From the NCBI GenBank assembly GCA_905221615.1, contig CAJNDT010000313.1, positions 1,178,001-1,242,000 on the forward strand: 64,000 nt of DNA, written 5' to 3'. Every line of letters begins with the position of its first letter. Positions within the stretch are counted from its first letter, which is position 1. Below the pieces are notes generated by a model. That model saw only the letters and a program-made list of their open reading frames with translations, made no database searches and had not been told where the DNA came from. A program made the translations under genes and the position numbers. Positions 52,376 through 64,000 of this stretch are shown here, piece by piece. This DNA comes from Symbiodinium sp. CCMP2592. Taxonomy: Eukaryota; Sar; Dinophyceae; Suessiales; Symbiodiniaceae.

Positions 52376-52679
52376 TGGCAGATGATGCGGGCGACGGGCG
52401 TGGGCTGGTGGGGCTCTCCGGCGCTACTGGATCAGATCGTCACGAGACTCGCACAAGCCTCCATGGCCAAACTGCGGAGTGGCAGCAGCCATTCGCTGGC
52501 GGCGACCGTCTCAAAGCACTCGCGGCCGCAAAGCTCTGCCGACGACCGGACGTTCGATGCCGGCGTCTGGGGCCGGGCTCCCGAGGAGCAGGAACAGGCA
52601 ACAAAATGGGCGCCAAAGACACTTCTTAGGTGATCCTAGACTCCTAATTAGAGTCCTAGACTCCTAGCACTCCTGCTTC

Positions 52680-52723
<44 letters not shown>

Positions 52724-53120
52724 TGTCTCTCTCTCTGTCTTCTCTCTCTCTCTCTCTCTCTCTCATCCTCCTCTCTGCCGAAAGGTGGCGCGGAAGTTGG
52801 CCGTGGACGAGGCGGTCTTCTGGTCCGTGGTGCTGGGCGCCAGCTGTGGTAAGCTGCGGGCCCTCTGCAAGACGGGGCTCTTCAGGGAAGCGGCGGAGGC
52901 GGGAGCTGGAGGCCAGCTCTGGACACTGCTGAGTCACGAGCGGGCAAACGAGCCTTTGTTCCTGCGGAAGAACGCTTTCCGCTTGCTGGAGCTGCACCGA
53001 TTCCATCTGGCAGCCGCACTGTTCCTACTGGCCGGTAGCTGTGAGGAGGCTTTGCAAATCATCTCAAGGCATTTGAAGGATCTGCAGCTCTGTGTTCTCG
53101 TTGCCCGGGACCCGAAGCAC
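52376..53120 (+). CDS. Rav1/DmX-like protein, two exons of the conserved C-terminal domain
   Basis: The first exon (about 52376-52475) encodes ATGVGWWGSPALLDQIVTRL and AQASMAK. The second (52785 to about 53120) encodes VARKLAVDEAVFWSVVLGAS, LFLRKNAFRLLELHRFHLAA and ALFLLAGSCEEALQIISRHL, then KDLQLCVLVAR. This order ('GxxWW...LEKLA', 'AxFYxxLxKxxxL', 'KNAYxLLxKHRFxxAAAFFLLA', 'LxDxQLAIxxAR') is that of the Rav1p C-terminal domain of Rav1/DMXL proteins, which regulate V-ATPase assembly (RAVE/rabconnectin complex). The exons are separated by about 310 bases containing a (CT)n run (52677-52765). The donor of the first exon is not pinned down. Upstream exons are not recognised in this window. Confidence 0.65.
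52677..52765 (+). repeat. (CT)n microsatellite in an intron
   Basis: TCTCTCTC with occasional TGTC interruptions, in the intron before the second Rav1-like exon. It would serve as a long pyrimidine tract ahead of the acceptor at 52784. Confidence 0.85.
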
Positions 53121-53379
53121 CGCGAAGCGCTGCAGAAGGCACGGCGAAAGGAAAAGGCAAAAGGGCTTTGCCCCAGGAAGCCTTGTGGTTTTGCTTCGGA
53201 TTCAGGGTACCTTCAATCGTACGCAGGATTTGGTTCCAGCGATCGCCAGATGCCTACGGCTCCCGCTGTGGTGCCGTCACCGTCCTCCCGCAATACATAA
53301 CGCAGTTTGGTGTATTGATATTGTCATACATTGTCCTACTTGAATCGTGCTCCCGCGACAGTCATTATAGGACTTTGGC

Positions 53380-53930: not shown

Positions 53931-56900
53931 ATGGCGAATGCGCCTGCGTCCGCCGGGCCTATCGATATTTCCTCCCTCACACGTGTGGGCAAAGACGATC
54001 TGGGCTTGCTGGAGCAGCCGAAGGCCAGCCGCGGGGCTGCCGCCGGGGCTTCCCCCGGACCTTCCCCTTCATCCCCCGCCCCAGACCCCAACGCTTTCCT
54101 CTGCCTCCCTCCTCCCTTTTGCCAGGAGCCCGCGTACTTCACAGCCTTGGCCCAGATCTACGTGCGCAGCCAGCCCTATGGTGGCTCCGACAAGAGCTCG
54201 AACGGCCACCGATATGATTCCATCCCTTTTGCTAACGGCATGATCAGTGCAGGCATGAGTTGTCAGCTGATTCACTACGTGCATGAAGAGCATGACAAGT
54301 TCTTCGAGGTGTGCAAGAACTTTCATGCCATCATCGTGCGTTGCAACCCTGGTCAGATCAAGGCAGACGGGGGAGATCAGGGCAAGTTCGACGATGGCAT
54401 GCGTGCCATGCGCAAGCTGGGCATTCAGGTTTGGCCCTCACCCGACGTCATGGAGTTCATGGGCGCCAAGGACGCGCTTTGCAAGGTGGCCACGTTGAAC
54501 ATTGGCTTGGAGGACACGCTCGCCTACTACACGGCAGAGGAGTTTGCGGCAGGCTTCAAAAAGACGATGGCTTTCCAGCCGCGTGTCATCAAGCAGAACA
54601 GGGGCTCGTCAGGTGAGGGCATCTGGATCATCAAGCTGAAAGCCGGCAACTACTGCAAGTCCTACGGAGAGAGGTCTTGCACAGACGACGAGGTGTTGGA
54701 TCTGATGGAGGCGAACGACAACCATGCTGAAGAGCACACCGTGGCGGAGTTCATCGAGTTCTGTGTGAGCGGCCGCACGTCTAAGTCTGGAACTTGGACA
54801 TCGAAGGGCGTCGGCAAGTACTTGGAGGGTGGTAAGGCCGCAGGAGGGCAGCTCGTAGATCAACGTTTTTGCCCACGCATTGTGGAAGGTGAGCTGCGCT
54901 ACAACATGGTGGGCGACGCACTTGTTGGGATTATCCACAAGAAGCCCAAGGAGGGTGGAATCTCAGCAGTGGGGGGCACAGGATCTATATACACGTTCTA
55001 CGGCCCGGAGGAACCTAAGTTCAAGGGTCTGACGGAGAATTTCCTGAAGAGGGACTTGGAGCATGTGATGCCATCCTTGGGTCTAGCAGACGAGCCGATC
55101 CCGCTGTGGTGGACGACGGACTTCATCCTTGCTTCGCCCGAGGGCACGCCTGCGGATCAGGAGAAGTGGATCGTTGGGGAGTTCAACTGCTCCTGCGTGG
55201 GCATTTCCAAGTGCCTGGCTGCCTACTGCAAGGACGACACTCCCAACGCCTGCTACACCGACATATCGCCCGAAGATCTGAAGGAGGCTCAAGGCTATGG
55301 CGACTTGATGGGAGCCAAGGTGCAGTGCTGCTTTGGACGAAGTTCGTGACAACGCGATGTTGTGTTCCATGCTTCGTAAGAGGGGGGGTGGTCAGAAATG
55401 GTCAGAAGAAGAAGAGGCAAATGGCAAGGTCCCGTGGTTGCAGGCTCTACCGCTCCACCCCGCAAAACGGAAATCCTAGGTATTCTGAGCATTGTTTGGC
55501 CTTGGCCCTTCTGTGTGGTTCATAGTCCCTCTTGGCGCTTCAATGCAACAAGAAGACTCAGGCCCTTTTTGCCCCTTCCAGAGAGGGGGGGGGGAAGGCC
55601 CCCACTGTGGCAGCTTGACTCAGCGGAGAGAGACCCCGAGAGAGACTGTAAGAGGGAGGAGCGGAGAGAGGGAGAGAGACCATAGGAAGCACCACAGAAA
55701 TGCGCGGAAGAGAGGGGATGGGATCCGCTCTTTGCCTGTGCGGACTCTGTGCGTCTCGGGCGCAGGCCCTGGGGATCCTCGCGAAGGCGGCCATGGGCCC
55801 CGTGGACCTCAGCGCGCTCACGCAGGCGCGGCGGGACGGCCGCCGTCGTTTTTTGTGTGAAAGTTCTTGGGGGTCGGCTTTTTGCTTCGCTTATCTTTTT
55901 TTTCGTCTCTTTTGACGCCTTAGGGGGAAAAGCTGATCTTCAGAATGCACTCAGAGATGCAAGAAGGTTCAAACGGGTCAAACGGCTCTCGGCTCGCCTC
56001 CCTTCAGGTTGCCAAGAGCAGCTTGGGCTTGCGTCCCCAACCCTCCAAGCCGAAGTACAAGACGTCGTTGGCGCAGATCTACGTGCGCAGCCAGCCCTAT
56101 GGTGGCTCCGACAAGAGCTCGAACGGCCACCGATATGATTCCATCCCTTTTGCTAACGGCATGATCAGTGCAGGCATGAGTTGTCAGCTGATTCACTACG
56201 TGCATGAAGAGCATGACAAGTTCTTCGAGGTGTGCAAGAACTTTGATGCCATCATCGTGCGTTGCAACCCTGGTCAGATCAAGGCAGACGGGGGAGATCA
56301 GGGCAAGTTCGACGATGGCATGCGTGCCATGCGCAAGCTGGGCATTCAGGTTTGGCCCTCACCCGACGTCATGGAGTTCATGGGCGCCAAGGACGCGCTT
56401 TGCAAGGTGGCCACGTTGAACATTGGCTTGGAGGACACGCTCGCCTACTACACGGCAGAGGAGTTTGCGGCAGGCTTCAAAAAGACGATGGCTTTCCAGC
56501 CGCGTGTCATCAAGCAGAACAGGGGCTCGTCAGGTGAGGGCATCTGGATCATCAAGCTGAAAGCCGGCAACTACTGCAAGTCCTACGGAGAGAGGTCTTG
56601 CACAGACGACGAGGTGTTGGATCTGATGGAGGCGAACGACAACCATGCTGAAGAGCACACCGTGGCGGAGTTCATCGAGTTCTGTGTGAGCGGCCGCACG
56701 TCTAAGTCTGGAACTTGGACATCGAAGGGCGTCGGCAAGTACTTGGAGGGTGGTAAGGCCGCAGGAGGGCAGCTCGTAGATCAACGTTTTTGCCCACGCA
56801 TTGTGGAAGGTGAGCTGCGCTACAACATGGTGGGCGACGCACTTGTTGGGATTATCCACAAGAAGCCCAAGGAGGGTGGAATCTCAGCAGTGGGGGGCAC

Positions 56901-59900
56901 AGGATCTATATACACGTTCTACGGCCCGGAGGAACCTAAGTTCAAGGGTCTGACGGAGAATTTCCTGAAGAGGGACTTGGAGCATGTGATGCCATCCTTG
57001 GGTCTAGCAAACGAGCCCATCCCGCTGTGGTGGACGACGGACTTCATCCTTGCTTCGCCCGAGGGCACGCCTGCGGATCAGGAGAAGTGGATCGTCGGGG
57101 AGTTCAACTGCTCCTGCGTGGGCATTTCCAAGTGCCTGGCTGCCTACTGCAAGGACGACACCCCCAACGCCTGCTACACCGACATATCGCCCGAAGATCT
57201 GAAGGAGGCTCAAGGCTATGGCGACTTAATGGGCAGGAAGGCCAAACAGATTTTGGATAGACTTCAAAGCCCGGTGGATGTGTCTTCGTTAGTGACGGTC
57301 GCCAAGGATAATCTTGGACTTAGGGCCCAGCCTCGAAATCCGAAGTACAAGACATCGCTGGCGCAGATCTACGTGCGCAGCCAGCCGTATGGTGGCTCCG
57401 ACAAGAGCTCCAACGGCCACCGATATGATTCCATCCCTTTTGCGAACGGCATGATCAGTGCAGGCATGAGTTGTCAGCTGATTCACTACGTGCATGAAGA
57501 GCATGACAAGTTCTTCGAGGTGTGCAAGAACTTTGATGCCATCATCGTGCGTTGCAACCCTGGTCAGATCAAGGCAGATGGGGGAGATCAGGGCAAGTTC
57601 GACGATGGCATGCGTGCCATGCGCAAGCTGGGCATTCAGGTTTGGCCCTCACCCGACGTCATGGAGTTCATGGGTGCCAAGGATGCGCTTTGCAAGGTGG
57701 CCACATTGAACATTGGCTTGGAGGACACGCTCGCCTACTACTCGGCAGAGGAGTTTGCGGCAGGCTTCAAAAAGACGATGGCTTTCCAGCCGCGTGTCAT
57801 CAAGCAGAACAGGGGCTCGTCAGGTGAGGGCATCTGGATCATCAAGCTGAAAGCCGGCAACTACTGCAAGTCCTACGGAGAGAGGTCTTGCACAGACGAC
57901 GAGGTGTTGGATCTGATGGAGGCGAACGACAACCATGCTGAAGAGCACACCGTGGCGGAGTTCATCGAGTTCTGTGTGAGCGGCCGCACGTCTAAGTCTG
58001 GAACTTGGACATCGAAGGGCGTCGGCAAGTACTTGGAGGGTGGTAAGGCCGCAGGAGGGCAGCTCGTAGATCAACGTTTTTGCCCACGCATTGTGGAAGG
58101 TGAGCTGCGCTACAACATGGTGGGCGACGCACTTGTTGGGATTATCCACAAGAAGCCCAAGGAGGGTGGAATCTCAGCAGTGGGCGGCACAGGATCTATA
58201 TACACGTTCTACGGCCCGGAGGAACCTAAGTTCAAGGGTCTGACGGAGAATTTCCTGAAGAGGGACTTGGAGCATGTGATGCCATCCTTGGGTCTAGCAA
58301 ACGAGCCCATCCCGTTGTGGTGGACGACGGACTTCATCCTTGCTTCGCCCGAGGGCACGCCTGCGGATCAGGAGAAGTGGATCGTCGGGGAGTTCAACTG
58401 CTCCTGCGTGGGCATTTCCAAGTGCCTGGCTGCATACTGCAAGGACGACACCCCCAACGCCTGCTTCGATGATATTTCGCCCGAAGATCTGAAGGAAGCT
58501 GAAAGATATGGAGAGCTCATGGGAGCGAAGGCTTTGAGCATCTTGGAGAAGGTACGTGCCCCCGTAGACACCGCTCCGTTGTCCAAAGTTTCCAAGGACG
58601 ATCTTGGACTTCAAGCGCAACCAAAGAAGCCTACTTACAAGATTGGTTTGGCACAGATCTACGTGCGCAGCCAGCCGTATGGTGGTTCCGACAAGAGCTC
58701 GAACGGCCACCGCTATGATTCCATCCCTTTTGCTAACGGCATGATCAGTGCAGGCATGAGTTGTCAGCTGATTCACTACGTGCATGAAGAGCATGACAAG
58801 TTCTTCGAGGTGTGCAAGAACTTTGATGCCATCATCGTGCGTTGCAACCCTGGTCAGATCAAGGCAGATGGGGGAGATCAGGGCAAGTTCGACGATGGCA
58901 TGCGTGCCATGCGCAAGCTGGGCATTCAGGTTTGGCCCTCACCCGACGTCATGGAGTTCATGGGTGCCAAGGACGCGCTTTGCAAGGTGGCCACATTGAA
59001 CATTGGCTTGGAGGACACGCTCGCCTACTACTCGGCAGAGGAGTTTGCGGCAGGCTTCAAAAAGACGATGGCTTTCCAGCCGCGTGTCATCAAGCAGAAC
59101 AGGGGCTCATCAGGTGAGGGCATCTGGATCATCAAGCTGAAAGCCGGCAACTACTGCAAGTCCTACGGAGAGAGGTCTTGCACAGACGACGAGGTGTTGG
59201 ATCTGATGGAGGCGAACGACAACCATGCTGAAGAGCACACCGTGGCGGAGTTCATCGAGTTCTGTGTGAGCGGCCGCACGTCTAAGTCTGGAACTTGGAC
59301 GTCTAAGGGCGTCGGCAAGTACTTGGAGGGTGGTAAGGCCGCAGGAGGGCAGCTCGTAGATCAACGATTTTGCCCACGCATTGTGGAAGGTGAGCTGCGC
59401 TACAACATGGTGGGCGACGCACTTGTTGGGATTATCCACAAGAAGCCCAAGGAGGGTGGAATCTCAGCAGTGGGCGGCACAGGATCTATATACACGTTCT
59501 ACGGCCCGGAGGAACCTAAGTTCAAGGGTCTGACGGAGAATTTCCTGAAGAGGGACTTGGAGCATGTGATGCCATCCTTGGGTCTAGCAGACGAGCCGAT
59601 CCCGCTGTGGTGGACGACGGACTTCATCCTTGCTTCGCCCGAGGGCACGCCTGCGGATCAGGAGAAGTGGATCGTCGGGGAGTTCAACTGCTCCTGCGTG
59701 GGCATTTCCAAGTGCCTGGCTGCCTACTGCAAGGACGACACCCCCAACGCCTGCTTCGATGATATTTCCACTGCAGATTTGAAGGAGGCAGAGCGCTATG
59801 GGACACTGATGGGTCAGAAGGCTCTTGGTAGCTTGGCCTCTTTCTTGTCTTCAGATATGACATGCGTGCTTTCATTTCATGTCTATCTGTGATCGCTTTG

Positions 59901-62900
59901 AAAGACAGATCCGTGTGGGACTTGTGCAAAATCTGCTGTCCCTGGTCATCAGCAATGTCCTAAATGTCTTAAATTCTTAAATATCTAGTCCATTGAGTCT
60001 TGGTTGCTATCCTCAGGTATCCTGGAGCAGGCAGCAAACCCAGTTGATGTTTCCAGCTTACGGAAGGTTGCCACGGACAAGCTTGGGCTGCTTCGGCAGC
60101 CTGCCAGCCCGAGCTTCAAGACTGCACTGGCCCAGATTTACGTGCGCAGCCAGCCGTATGGCGGCTCAGACAAGAGCTCGAACGGCCACCGCTATGATTC
60201 CATCCCTTTTGCCAACGGCATGATCAAAGCGGGCATGAGTTGTCAGCTGATTCACTACGTGCATGAAGAGCATTACAAGTTCTTCGAGGTGTGCAAGAAC
60301 TTTGATGCCATCATCGTGCGTTGCAACCCTGGTCAGATCAAGGCAGACGGGGGAGATCAGGGCAAGTTCGACGATGGCATGCGTGCCATGCGCAAGCTGG
60401 GCATTCAGGTTTGGCCCTCACCCGACGTCATGGAGTTCATGGGTGCCAAGGACGCGCTTTGCAAGGTGGCCACATTGAACATTGGCTTGGAGGACACGCT
60501 CGCCTACTACTCGGCAGAGGAGTTTGCGGCAGGCTTCAAAAAGACGATGGCTTTCCAGCCGCGTGTCATCAAGCAGAACAGGGGCTCGTCAGGTGAGGGC
60601 ATCTGGATCATCAAGCTGAAAGCCGGCAACTACTGCAAGTCCTACGGAGAGAGGTCTTGCACAAACGACGAGGTGTTGGATCTGATGGAGGCGAACGACA
60701 ACCATGCTGAAGAGCACACCGTGGCGGAGTTCATCGAGTTCTGTGTGAGCGGCCGCACGTCTAAGTCTGGAACTTGGACATCGAAGGGCGTCGGCAAGTA
60801 CTTGGAGGGTGGTAAGGCCGCAGGAGGGCAGCTCGTAGATCAACGTTTTTGCCCACGCATTGTGGAAGGTGAGCTGCGCTACAACATGGTGGGCGACGCA
60901 CTTGTTGGGATTATCCACAAGAAGCCCAAGGAGGGTGGAATCTCAGCAGTGGGCGGCACAGGATCTATATACACGTTCTACGGCCCGGAGGAACCTAAGT
61001 TCAAGGGTCTGACGGAGAATTTCCTGAAGAGGGACTTGGAGCATGTGATGCCATCCTTGGGTCTAGCAGACGAGCCGATCCCGCTGTGGTGGACGACGGA
61101 CTTCATCCTTGCTTCGCCCGAGGGCACGCCTGCGGATCAGGAGAAGTGGATCGTCGGGGAGTTCAACTGCTCCTGCGTGGGCATTTCCAAGTGCCTGGCT
61201 GCCTACTGCAAGGACGACACCCCCAACGCCTGCTACACCGACATATCGCCCGAAGATCTGAAGGAGGCTCAAGGATACGGGGACTTGATGGGTGTGAAAG
61301 CGCTGGCCATACTAGTTCGTGCCCGCAATCCAGTGGACGTTTCTCCGATCTCCCGGATTGCAAAGGATGATCTCGGCTTGTTGGTGCAGCCAAAGAGGGC
61401 TCGGTTCAAGACTGCACTGGCCCAGATCTACGTGCGCAGCCAGCCGTATGGCGGCTCAGACAAGAGCTCGAACGGCCACCGCTATGACTCCATCCCTTTT
61501 GCCAACGGCATGATCAATGCAGGCATGAGTTGTCAGCTGATTCACTACGTGCATGAAGAGCATGACAAGTTCTTCGAGGTGTGCAAGAACTTTGATGCCA
61601 TCATCGTGCGTTGCAACCCTGGTCAGATCAAGGCAGATGGGGGAGATCAGGGCAAGTTCGACGATGGCATGCGTGCCATGCGCAAGCTGGGCATTCAGGT
61701 TTGGCCCTCACCCGACGTCATGGAGTTCATGGGTGCCAAGGATGCGCTTTGCAAGGTGGCCACATTGAACATTGGCTTGGAGGACACGCTCGCCTACTAC
61801 TCGGCAGAGGAGTTTGCGGCAGGCTTCAAAAAGACGATGGCTTTCCAGCCGCGTGTCATCAAGCAGAACAGGGGCTCGTCAGGTGAGGGCATCTGGATCA
61901 TCAAGCTGAAAGCCGGCAACTACTGCAAGTCCTACGGAGAGAGGTCTTGCACAAACGACGAGGTGTTGGATCTGATGGAGGCGAACGACAACCATGCTGA
62001 AGAGCACACCGTGGCGGAGTTCATCGAGTTCTGTGTGAGCGGCCGCACGTCTAAGTCTGGAACTTGGACATCGAAGGGCGTCGGCAAGTACTTGGAGGGT
62101 GGTAAGGCCGCAGGAGGGCAGCTCGTAGATCAACGTTTTTGCCCACGCATTGTGGAAGGTGAGCTGCGCTACAACATGGTGGGCGACGCACTTGTTGGGA
62201 TTATCCACAAGAAGCCCAAGGAGGGTGGAATCTCAGCAGTGGGCGGCACAGGATCTATATACACGTTCTACGGCCCGGAGGAACCTAAGTTCAAGGGTCT
62301 GACGGAGAATTTCCTCAAGAGGGACTTGGAGCATGTGATGCCATCCTTGGGTCTAGCAGACGAGCCGATCCCGCTGTGGTGGACGACGGACTTCATCCTT
62401 GCTTCGCCCGAGGGCACGCCTGCGGATCAGGAGAAGTGGATCGTCGGGGAGTTCAACTGCTCCTGCGTGGGCATTTCCAAGTGCCTGGCTGCCTACTGCA
62501 AGGACGACACCCCCAACGCCTGCTACACCGACATATCGCCCGAAGATCTGAAGGAGGCTCAAGGATACGGGGACTTGATGGGCAAGAAGGCCAAAGCCAT
62601 CCTGAGCCGGGCGAAGGGTGGCTTGGGGAAGCGCACGCCGGGGGTCTTCAAGATCGCTCCTTGGCCTGAGCCGAGGGACGAAGTCTGCATTGTTTTTGCT
62701 TCGAAGGGTGGCTTCGCCGGCTTTTTCGAGCCGCTCTCTCTCAGGTCTTCCTGCGACACGGGGAGAGTGACTGGAATGTCGCTCGGAACGGAAGAGGGGA
62801 GAAGCCTTCCAGCCCTCCCCGACAGCTTTCAAGCTTCGTCTCTATCTCTACCTCTCTCCCAGCTCCCTCCCTCTTGAAAGCAGCACCGCAGCTCCCACGC

Positions 62901-63757
62901 GTGTTGAGGTGAAGAACATCTTCACGGGCTGGGCGGACGTGGACCTCAGCGAGGCCGGCCGCCGCGAGGCCGGCCGAGCGGTGCGGGAATGCGGGAACGG
63001 CCGATTTTGAAAAGATGGAGAGCTGGACTGGAAAAGCACGGGAAGCGCGGCGATGGGAGGCGGTGGAGGCGGGGCGGATGCTGCTGGACGAGGGCTTCCG
63101 CTTCGACATCGTCTTCACGCCCGCAGACCCAACCTTTTCAACCGTCGCATCCGCCTCCTCTCTCTCTCTCTTGGCTTTGAGCCTCTGCAGGTCCGTGCTT
63201 CGCCGGGGGCCCACAACGGAAGAGAGGGGAAGAAGAGAGGTCTCAGAGACGTGCGGTGCTCCGAGACGTGCGGTGCTCCGCAGGCCGAGCCGTGCGCACG
63301 GCCTGGACGGCCTTGGCGGAGTCCTCGAACTTCGCGATGCCCGTCATCAACTCCTGGAGGAGAGGGATATGTCTCGCCGAGAGCGCCTCACCGGCCTCCG
63401 GGGCCTCCGGCCTGGCCTCCTCCGCCTCTCCCTGCGAGGCTCAATGAGCGGCACTATGGTGGCCTGCAGGGCTTGAACAAGGCTGTTAACTTCAGCCCGC
63501 GCTGAGAGAGAGAGAGGGAGGCGCTCTCAGCTGCCGCGCTAAGGCAGAGACAGCTGCAAAGCACGGCGAGAAGCAGGCTCGCGGCTCTACATTCCAAGCG
63601 AGCGGCTCCGACTGGCTGGGATCCGCGCCCCCCCTTTCTCCTCGCTTTCTGGCAGGTGAAGATCTGGCGGAGGAGCTACGACATCCCGCCGCCGGCAATC
63701 AGTGCCTCAGATCCGCGGCATCCCTCCAATGACCCAATGTACCGTAACGCGGGTCCC

Positions 63758-63792
<35 letters not shown>

Positions 63793-64000
63793 AGTTTTTC
63801 ACCGCGCTAGGGAACGCACGTGACAAGTGACTTGTTTGAGGTTCCCAAGACAGCCTTGCCTGGAGCAGAGTCCTTGTCGATGACGGTGGACCGGGTAAGG
63901 TTCTCAGCGCATGGCACAATTGCAGAGCAGGTCCCAGGCTTGTGCCCCGACACTTGAGGTGATGCCTTTTTGGAACGACACCATCGCGCCTTGCGTGCGC
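53931..64000 (+). CDS. Six tandem ATP-grasp-like domains fused to phosphoglycerate mutase (3' end beyond window)
   Basis: ATG at 53931 (GGAAAATGGCG). Proposed exons: 53931-54023, 54126-55319, 55766-55825, 56008-59827, 60017-62691, 62745-62777, 62909-62968, 63060-63118, 63191-63201, 63284-63359, 63439-63481, 63544-63576, 63656-63748, 63841-63894 and 63959-64000 onward. They sum to 8346 nt, 2782 codons, with no stop. The 14 introns are 5 GT-AG, 8 GC-AG and 1 GA-AG, all with AG|G acceptors. Each 389-residue core has [19 protein letters not shown] (ATP-grasp-type Lys and Gly loop), [30 protein letters not shown] and [16 protein letters not shown] (metal-binding E/N-like). It resembles bacterial Cj0069/DUF6815-type proteins (from memory). 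The C-terminus is a dPGM-type mutase. Ligand of the ATP-grasp part is unknown. Dinoflagellates are known for tandem polyproteins; whether this one is cleaved is not known. Confidence 0.75.
54147..55313 (+). repeat. ATP-grasp-like core unit 1 (1167 bp)
   Basis: 389 codons from [13 protein letters not shown] to DLMG. Unit-specific differences include NFHAIIV (Asp to His) and AYYTAEEF. It is preceded by a 38-codon linker that is interrupted by the GC-AG intron 54024-54125. Confidence 0.9.
56068..57234 (+). repeat. ATP-grasp-like core unit 2 (1167 bp)
   Basis: Nearly identical to unit 1 at the nucleotide level, shares AYYTAEEF with it, and has [10 protein letters not shown]. It is joined to unit 1 by a 42-codon linker spread over three exons (introns 55320-55765 GT-AG and 55826-56007 GC-AG; the middle exon is exactly 20 codons, [20 protein letters not shown]). 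Confidence 0.9.
57358..58524 (+). repeat. ATP-grasp-like core unit 3 (1167 bp)
   Basis: Has [18 protein letters not shown] and NACFDDIS. Joined to units 2 and 4 by intronless 41-codon linkers (123 bases each). Confidence 0.9.
58648..59814 (+). repeat. ATP-grasp-like core unit 4 (1167 bp)
   Basis: Has [18 protein letters not shown] and NACFDDIS. The following linker contains a 189-bp GT-AG intron (59828-60016). Once this is removed, the linker is again 41 codons ([18 protein letters not shown]). Confidence 0.9.
60127..61293 (+). repeat. ATP-grasp-like core unit 5 (1167 bp)
   Basis: Unit-specific GMIKAGMS and EEHYKFFE; shares SCTNDEVL with unit 6. Followed by an intronless 41-codon linker. 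Confidence 0.9.
61417..62583 (+). repeat. ATP-grasp-like core unit 6 (1167 bp)
   Basis: Unit-specific GMINAGMS and shared SCTNDEVL. Followed by [20 protein letters not shown] and [12 protein letters not shown], which runs into the mutase domain. Confidence 0.9.
62677..64000 (+). CDS. Phosphoglycerate mutase domain (dPGM type), C-terminal part of the fusion gene
   Basis: Spliced reading gives [16 protein letters not shown] (phospho-acceptor His in RHGES), [111 protein letters not shown] and [15 protein letters not shown]. These are the successive conserved blocks of 2,3-bisphosphoglycerate-dependent phosphoglycerate mutase, which interconverts 3- and 2-phosphoglycerate in glycolysis. The C-terminal block with the second catalytic His lies beyond 64000. 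The domain is cut by ten short introns (53-131 bp), one flanking exon being only 11 bases (63191-63201). There is no Met or stop between unit 6 and this domain. Confidence 0.85.
63759..63790 (+). repeat. (GA)n microsatellite inside an intron
   Basis: About 16 GA units within intron 63749-63840 of the mutase domain. Confidence 0.85.

Follow-up and report, generated by a model that had tools for sequence, protein, structure and literature searches.

Dinoflagellate genes with multiple coding units, in which tandem near-identical units follow one another in one frame with no internal stops, are described in passages of PMC11453091 and PMC10666404. A second precedent is the fusion of GAPDH and enolase in dinoflagellates (Takishita 2005, as cited in PMC3527533), where a glycolytic enzyme is joined to another enzyme. 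The gene considered here starts in a 64,000-nucleotide stretch of Symbiodinium sp. CCMP2592 DNA, hereafter the window (G000:C313:1178001-1242000 of a 1.1-Gb assembly), and is predicted to encode six tandem units of the Cj0069/DUF6815 family, followed by a phosphoglycerate mutase dependent on 2,3-bisphosphoglycerate (dPGM). It is a variant of the dinoflagellate polyproteins, a kind already known: like the multi-unit genes of RuBisCO II, luciferase, LHC and HSP70, it has several near-identical units in a single stop-free frame. Unlike the RuBisCO II-type arrays, it repeats a unit of the ATP-grasp family, ends in an unrelated complete enzyme and shows no separate spacer peptide. The GAPDH-enolase fusion involves other enzymes, and the passage in PMC3527533 mentions no tandem array. 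Literature searches yielded no paper on DUF6815, none on the function of Cj0069 (judged by listings and one passage) and, for dPGM fusions in dinoflagellates, no paper among the matches listed. We put at about 0.75 the probability that this is one dinoflagellate gene specifying a single large chain, with six ATP-grasp units and an active dPGM arranged as beads on a string.

The repeat search of the window places six unit copies in a constant register, with spacings of 1921, 1290, 1290, 1479 and 1290 bp; tblastn with E up to 1 finds the same six units and one extra match at chance level. Units 2–4 (cores 56065-57174, 57355-58464 and 58645-59754) share one stop-free 1322-codon frame without an intron, forming exon 4 (56008..59827, forward strand, as is the whole gene), and units 5 and 6 (cores 60124-61233 and 61414-62523) share a 962-codon frame of the same kind. 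Hence tandem translation of these units needs no assumption about splicing. Unit 1 (core 54144-55253) lies in exon 2 (54126..55319), which is supported by the reading frames, the splice model, PF20668 and NF033816. The splice model also gives exon 1 (53931..54023), with the start methionine and the leader of unit 1, its junction being matched to the linkers of units 2–6, and exon 3 (55766..55825), the linker between units 1 and 2. Exon 5 (60017..62655) carries units 5 and 6 and the linker into the mutase, and its junction resembles those of the database proteins P0032, P0040 and P0061.

From the ATG at 53931, removal of short introns yields a single open frame with no stops, through the six units and then the dPGM. 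The preliminary description of this locus had proposed such a frame, and rebuilding it with 14 introns gave 2782 codons and zero stops; our first splice model was built with the numbers of that description already known. Its 389-residue cores and linkers of 41–42 codons agree with the measured unit-to-unit period of 431, 430, 430, 430 and 430 codons. We cut the cores at 370 residues, which leaves linkers of 60–61 residues, and the six cores are then 98.4–99.7% identical as proteins. The claimed lack of a methionine or stop between unit 6 and the mutase also holds in the rebuilt frame, where no methionine follows the LMG motif of unit 6. No relict DinoSL was found in the window with up to two mismatches allowed.

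The splice sites themselves were reproduced only in part. The GT donor of intron 5 at 62692 was dropped after comparison with the unit–mutase junctions of relatives, which pass directly from TPGV(F/M)KI, or close variants, into VFLRHGES: P0061 reads TPGVFKV-IFLRHGES, P0032 and P0040 are closely similar, and other relatives vary more. We chose the GC donor at 62656, since only then does the junction match this type, making intron 5 a GC-AG intron at 62656..62744. The model with this donor has 2770 codons; the last two being intron, 2768 lie in the window. The corrected mutase aligns gap-free over 175 residues, at 85% identity, with the transcript protein P0032, across ten introns between 62656 and 63958, the junction intron among them. 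This alignment and TIGR01258 support mutase exons 6–10 (62745-62777, 62909-62968, 63060-63118, 63191-63206, 63289-63359) and 11–15 (63439-63481, 63544-63576, 63656-63748, 63841-63894, 63959-63994). The bases 63995..64000, formerly read as coding, are the start of intron 15 with its GT donor, as seen by reading into the flanking DNA.

Beyond the window, on this contig, the following exon gives VMAGKNVLVAAHGNSLRAICKYLE. In extended window coordinates, the remaining exons are 64055-64126, 112405-112422, 112479-112552 and 112680-112776, the last with the stop, so that the gene ends at 112776 (G000:C313:1290776). The full frame has 2854 codons and a stop in 19 exons and 18 introns, with ten GC, six GT, one GA and one GG donors. 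The mutase domain is completed by three same-strand exons 48.3 kb away, and we infer that intron 16 (64127-112404, 48.3 kb) joins the mutase exons. Several long frames within this intron resemble retroelements on visual inspection.

The preliminary description had called the mutase a glycolytic dPGM, and the whole spliced domain scores accordingly: 366.6 bits with TIGR01258 (cut-off 81.7) and 369.4 bits with NF010713 (cut-off 305), the latter alignment covering residues 2–246 of 255; this domain includes the four final exons, which are beyond the window. The RHGES, NERHYG and AAHGNS motifs are intact, and RHG, NERHYG and AAHG we take to be the catalytic motifs of dPGM. The initial domain searches used the version with the 62692 donor, which had extra N-terminal residues. 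The mutase half of a structural model of P0061 matches the Toxoplasma dPGM 4odi; the fusion model has low overall confidence (pLDDT 64.4, pTM 0.43), and that half alone was used. Thus the domain resembles known dPGMs (TIGR01258, PRK14115) in full length and score, and differs in being the C-terminal domain of a giant protein, with the tail GLPDKVHVY in place of the final K of its relatives. Membership in the PPIP5K/VIP1 family was considered and rejected. In the in-window part of the mutase no C-terminal histidine acid phosphatase domain was detected, PF00300 being the sole family matched with E up to 0.1, in line with the earlier statement that it differs from the PPIP5K phosphatase domain. 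We assume that the mutase is a branch 1 enzyme and the PPIP5K partner a branch 2 acid phosphatase.

We consider it improbable that the mutase part is degenerating or has lost its function. Its C-terminal exons are indeed 48 kb away, and the related DUF6815–dPGM fusion P0034 has RNAQSEW in place of RHGES, that is, RNA instead of the active-site RHG, and is likely inactive judging by this substitution; against such decay here stand the intact motifs, the score of the whole domain and the gapless similarity to P0032.

Unit 1 scores 234.4 bits with the Cj0069 family model NF033816 (cut-off 150) and 108.3 bits with PF20668, that is, DUF6815 (cut-off 28), so that it passes both curated cut-offs of the family proposed for comparison. 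The description of the units as ATP-grasp-like stands as far as the fold is concerned: in a structure comparison of the unit model, done as a re-alignment (VIA) of Foldseek's top chains, the unit has the ATP-grasp fold, and the nearest structures are D-cycloserine synthetase (DcsG), glutathione synthetase (GshB) and RimK. These ligases outrank PPIP5K, yet its Z gap to RimK is within 1. The residues K155, G159, G162, G164, D331, E351 and N353 of unit 4, invariant across 22 sequences including bacterial members, are presumably candidate nucleotide- or metal-binding residues. The sequence model agrees less well: PF14397 (ATP-grasp) gives 17.3 bits for one unit (cut-off 31.4) and 46.3 bits for three units together, and, even with E up to 1, it picks up just 6 of 22 family members. 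A search of PDB sequences with the unit returned just two irrelevant matches near E 1. The bacterial Cj0069 members that were fetched are single proteins of about 330–360 aa, 22–27% identical to the unit; here there are six tandem copies and a mutase.

The unit has 1544 matches, and among the 120 best all those with an organism name are from dinoflagellates (Durusdinium, Symbiodinium, Prorocentrum, Polarella). In the same genome, contig C5227 has a single-unit gene starting MGSAASTDVKNEIQAKSVDEIAAALKELPADQLAKVKDAL, identical there to P0064 of Symbiodinium pilosum, which by itself makes an origin from a Symbiodiniaceae-like species likely. In P0087, P0069, P0085 and P0097 the DUF6815 units are joined to further Pfam domains, presumably EF-hands, and calcium control is possible for these proteins.

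The fusion with the mutase recurs. In a search scoring the mutase part alone and admitting proteins of 0.55–1.75 times 609 aa, DUF6815 and a histidine-phosphatase domain occur together in 14 of the 120 best matches (610 in total). Nine of these are from jgi, three from eukprot (two being isoforms of one gene), one from mmetsp and one, of Polarella glacialis, from ncbi. The unit–mutase junction is nearly the same in several of them, and in P0061 a single unit is fused to the mutase through a short, direct junction. Proteins of relatives, some derived from transcripts and none from the locus itself, span both unit–unit and unit–mutase boundaries. Hence the DUF6815–dPGM fusion is no local accident, by comparison of these proteins, and relatives have shorter versions.

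These data bear on the possibility that the locus is a tandem of DUF6815 genes next to a mutase gene, all of them individually trans-spliced, with the continuous frame a matter of chance. Trans-spliced tandem arrays are common in dinoflagellates according to a passage of PMC11453091, and the genome itself offers examples: G000:C765:13001-33000 (L104, L105) has four separate tandem DUF6815 copies, intron-rich, unlike the intron-less cores of the window, and C1558 has two intron-less free-standing dPGM genes in tandem, 55% identical to the P0032 mutase. We nevertheless regard such a set of genes as highly improbable, given the stop-free intron-less frames through three and two units, the similar unit–mutase junction in transcript proteins of other species and the purifying selection on the linkers.

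The latter follows from substitution rates. Between units, the cores differ with dS 0.02–0.07 and dN 0.001–0.008, while in linkers 2–5 dS is above 2 or beyond correction and dN is 0.28–0.38 (the comparison did not include linker 1, which has one extra codon). By these rates the array is old, its cores are homogenised, most simply by gene conversion, and the linkers have escaped homogenisation and are constrained as translated protein. Constraint at the protein level is hard to square with untranslated spacers between separate genes.

The linkers also bear on what happens to the chain. Each consists of the C-terminal tail of one unit and the leader of the next, both of which occur in single-unit proteins, and contains no added spacer. 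Cleavage of a precursor within the linkers, as suggested for RuBisCO II, would release six ligases and a separate mutase. It has a precedent in the multi-coding-unit genes of P. cordatum with removed spacer peptides (in a passage of PMC10666404), and the linkers are far more divergent than the cores. Still, we consider cleavage unlikely: the linkers lack an extra spacer, their dN is far below dS, and the P0061 junction is direct and short. The uncleaved chain is preferred, with modest confidence, because the linkers are constrained and have no additional spacer.

The same mutase type has many other partners. Among the 120 best matches, mutases 69–84% identical are joined to at least nine further domains: PF01704 (eight), PF02317 (five), PF00534 (four), PF00406 (three), PF00334, PF00162 and PF00128 (two each), PF00274 and PF00390 (one each), which we take to be, in this order, UGPase, opine dehydrogenase, GT1, adenylate kinase, NDK, PGK, amylase, aldolase and malic enzyme. 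In P0148-P0190 the other enzymes are fused at the N- or C-terminus of the mutase, and P0173 is apparently the end of an opine dehydrogenase followed by dPGM and GT1. Several partner fusions come from short metagenomic or metatranscriptomic contigs and some may be chimeric; the UGPase and opine-dehydrogenase fusions recur across several sources. The organism name is visible for few (P0168, Scrippsiella), so that for the others the assignment to dinoflagellates is based on identity and the tree. In P0121-P0135 (717–794 aa, e.g. P0128 of Alexandrium catenella), the score to the mutase is 455–575 bits at about 50% identity; a single domain could hardly account for such scores, so these are probably tandem dPGM polyproteins.

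In a tree of 51 mutases, picked by partner from 163 extracted domains, the window mutase sits in a starred clade (96/94) that holds all 15 DUF6815-fused mutases of the tree. The same clade holds three GT1, two NDK and one ADK (adenylate kinase) fusions, the ADK row starting inside the mutase, so that its N-terminal partner is not visible. The DUF6815 label changes three times on the tree and forms a single clade in 0 of 200 bootstrap trees; P0034 and P0192, both DUF6815 rows, are long branches. The starred branches are nevertheless compatible with a single origin of the DUF6815–mutase fusion.

If the locus is a single gene, one mRNA with one translation start would yield a chain of about 2854 residues, which would remain an uncleaved multi-enzyme. 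The six units would provide catalytic dosage of a putative ATP-dependent ligase with a fold nearest to DcsG, GshB and RimK/LysX, and the C-terminal domain is predicted to be an active mutase, from a fusion-prone dPGM lineage whose union with DUF6815 would predate the divergence of the species compared. The earlier interpretation is partly supported; a ligase tied to phosphoglycerate is one option only, given the other partners and the free-standing mutase genes. Because the mutase has so many other partners, co-localisation or co-expression with central carbon metabolism seems likelier than a dedicated ligase–mutase reaction. More tentatively, at somewhat less than even odds, one dinoflagellate dPGM lineage may be a general fusion module at either end of many metabolic enzymes, forming lineage-wide multi-enzyme chains through which the phosphoglycerate pool would be linked to the metabolism of sugars, nucleotides and amino acids, with this gene as the largest member seen here.

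Several observations count against the single active chain. The locus is known from genomic DNA, with no transcript or peptide of it seen; the donor at 63207 is non-canonical (GG), and the full mutase depends on the 48.3-kb intron. The sequence-only ATP-grasp signal is weak, a single unit falling under the PF14397 cut-off, and the family profile found no chain among PDB sequences. The genome has other dPGM genes, those of C1558 and exon-like matches in C5302, and thus the fused mutase need not be the glycolytic enzyme. Finally, none of 379 candidates at E 0.001 in a search of long proteins (0.55–1.75 times 2770 aa) carries the mutase, so that six units with a mutase are known solely from this assembly.

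Upstream of the gene, the forward-strand frame ARKLAVDEAVFWSVVLGASCGKLRALCKTG (52668-53300) resembles, we assume, DmX/rabconnectin proteins.

A scan of genome contigs with the dinoflagellate alignment gave no relatives in the first pass, and tblastn against plasmids gave 24 records, the best 20 being 25.2–28.5% identical. Of seven plasmid loci, two have chrB-chrA-Fe/Mn superoxide dismutase (SOD)-Cj0069, one has ChrB-like-chrA-Cj0069, another carries a gene with a ChrB domain some 4.4 kb upstream, and another has SOD upstream and chrA/chrB pieces by tblastn; of the remaining two, one lacks these genes and one is unannotated, with no match. Among 87 loci (these seven and 80 kept of 267 genomic relatives, 48 of the 80 being Bradyrhizobium by title), tblastn at 1e-6 detects ChrA in 21, sulfurtransferase-type ChrB in 27, other ChrB in 21 and SOD in 18. 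Several ChrA matches are partial or about 31% identical, the loci are not independent and there is no background control, hence we claim no enrichment figure; clustering of open reading frames was noisy, many frames looking spurious and antisense, and the tblastn counts alone were used. Homologues of chrA and chrB, in some cases with SOD, lie no more than 6 kb from the Cj0069 gene in L004, L005, L007, L011, L036, L049, L072, L074, L078-L080, L082 and L087. ChrF was ruled out as the Cj0069 protein, as a passage of PMC7039435 calls O. tritici ChrF a superoxide dismutase. The gene neighbourhood suggests that Cj0069 has a role under oxyanion or oxidative stress in certain bacteria; carrying it over to dinoflagellates is speculation. 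The 2.96-Mb contig G000:C5051 (L102, L106), with bacterial-looking frames by eye, a dPGM and a relative of Cj0069 that shares 34% identity with the unit (25–28% for the plasmid ones), is probably an associated bacterium within the assembly.

The bacterial chromate and superoxide neighbourhood is thus a lead to the function of Cj0069 proteins. For dinoflagellates, the locus offers an inherited, testable fusion between an ATP-grasp family with many members in this group and an enzyme of central glycolysis. Its array illustrates how coding repeats stay identical in a dinoflagellate, with homogenisation limited to the cores and ancient linkers between them. The variety of dPGM fusions suggests that central metabolism in dinoflagellates is shaped by gene fusion as well as by tandem arrays.

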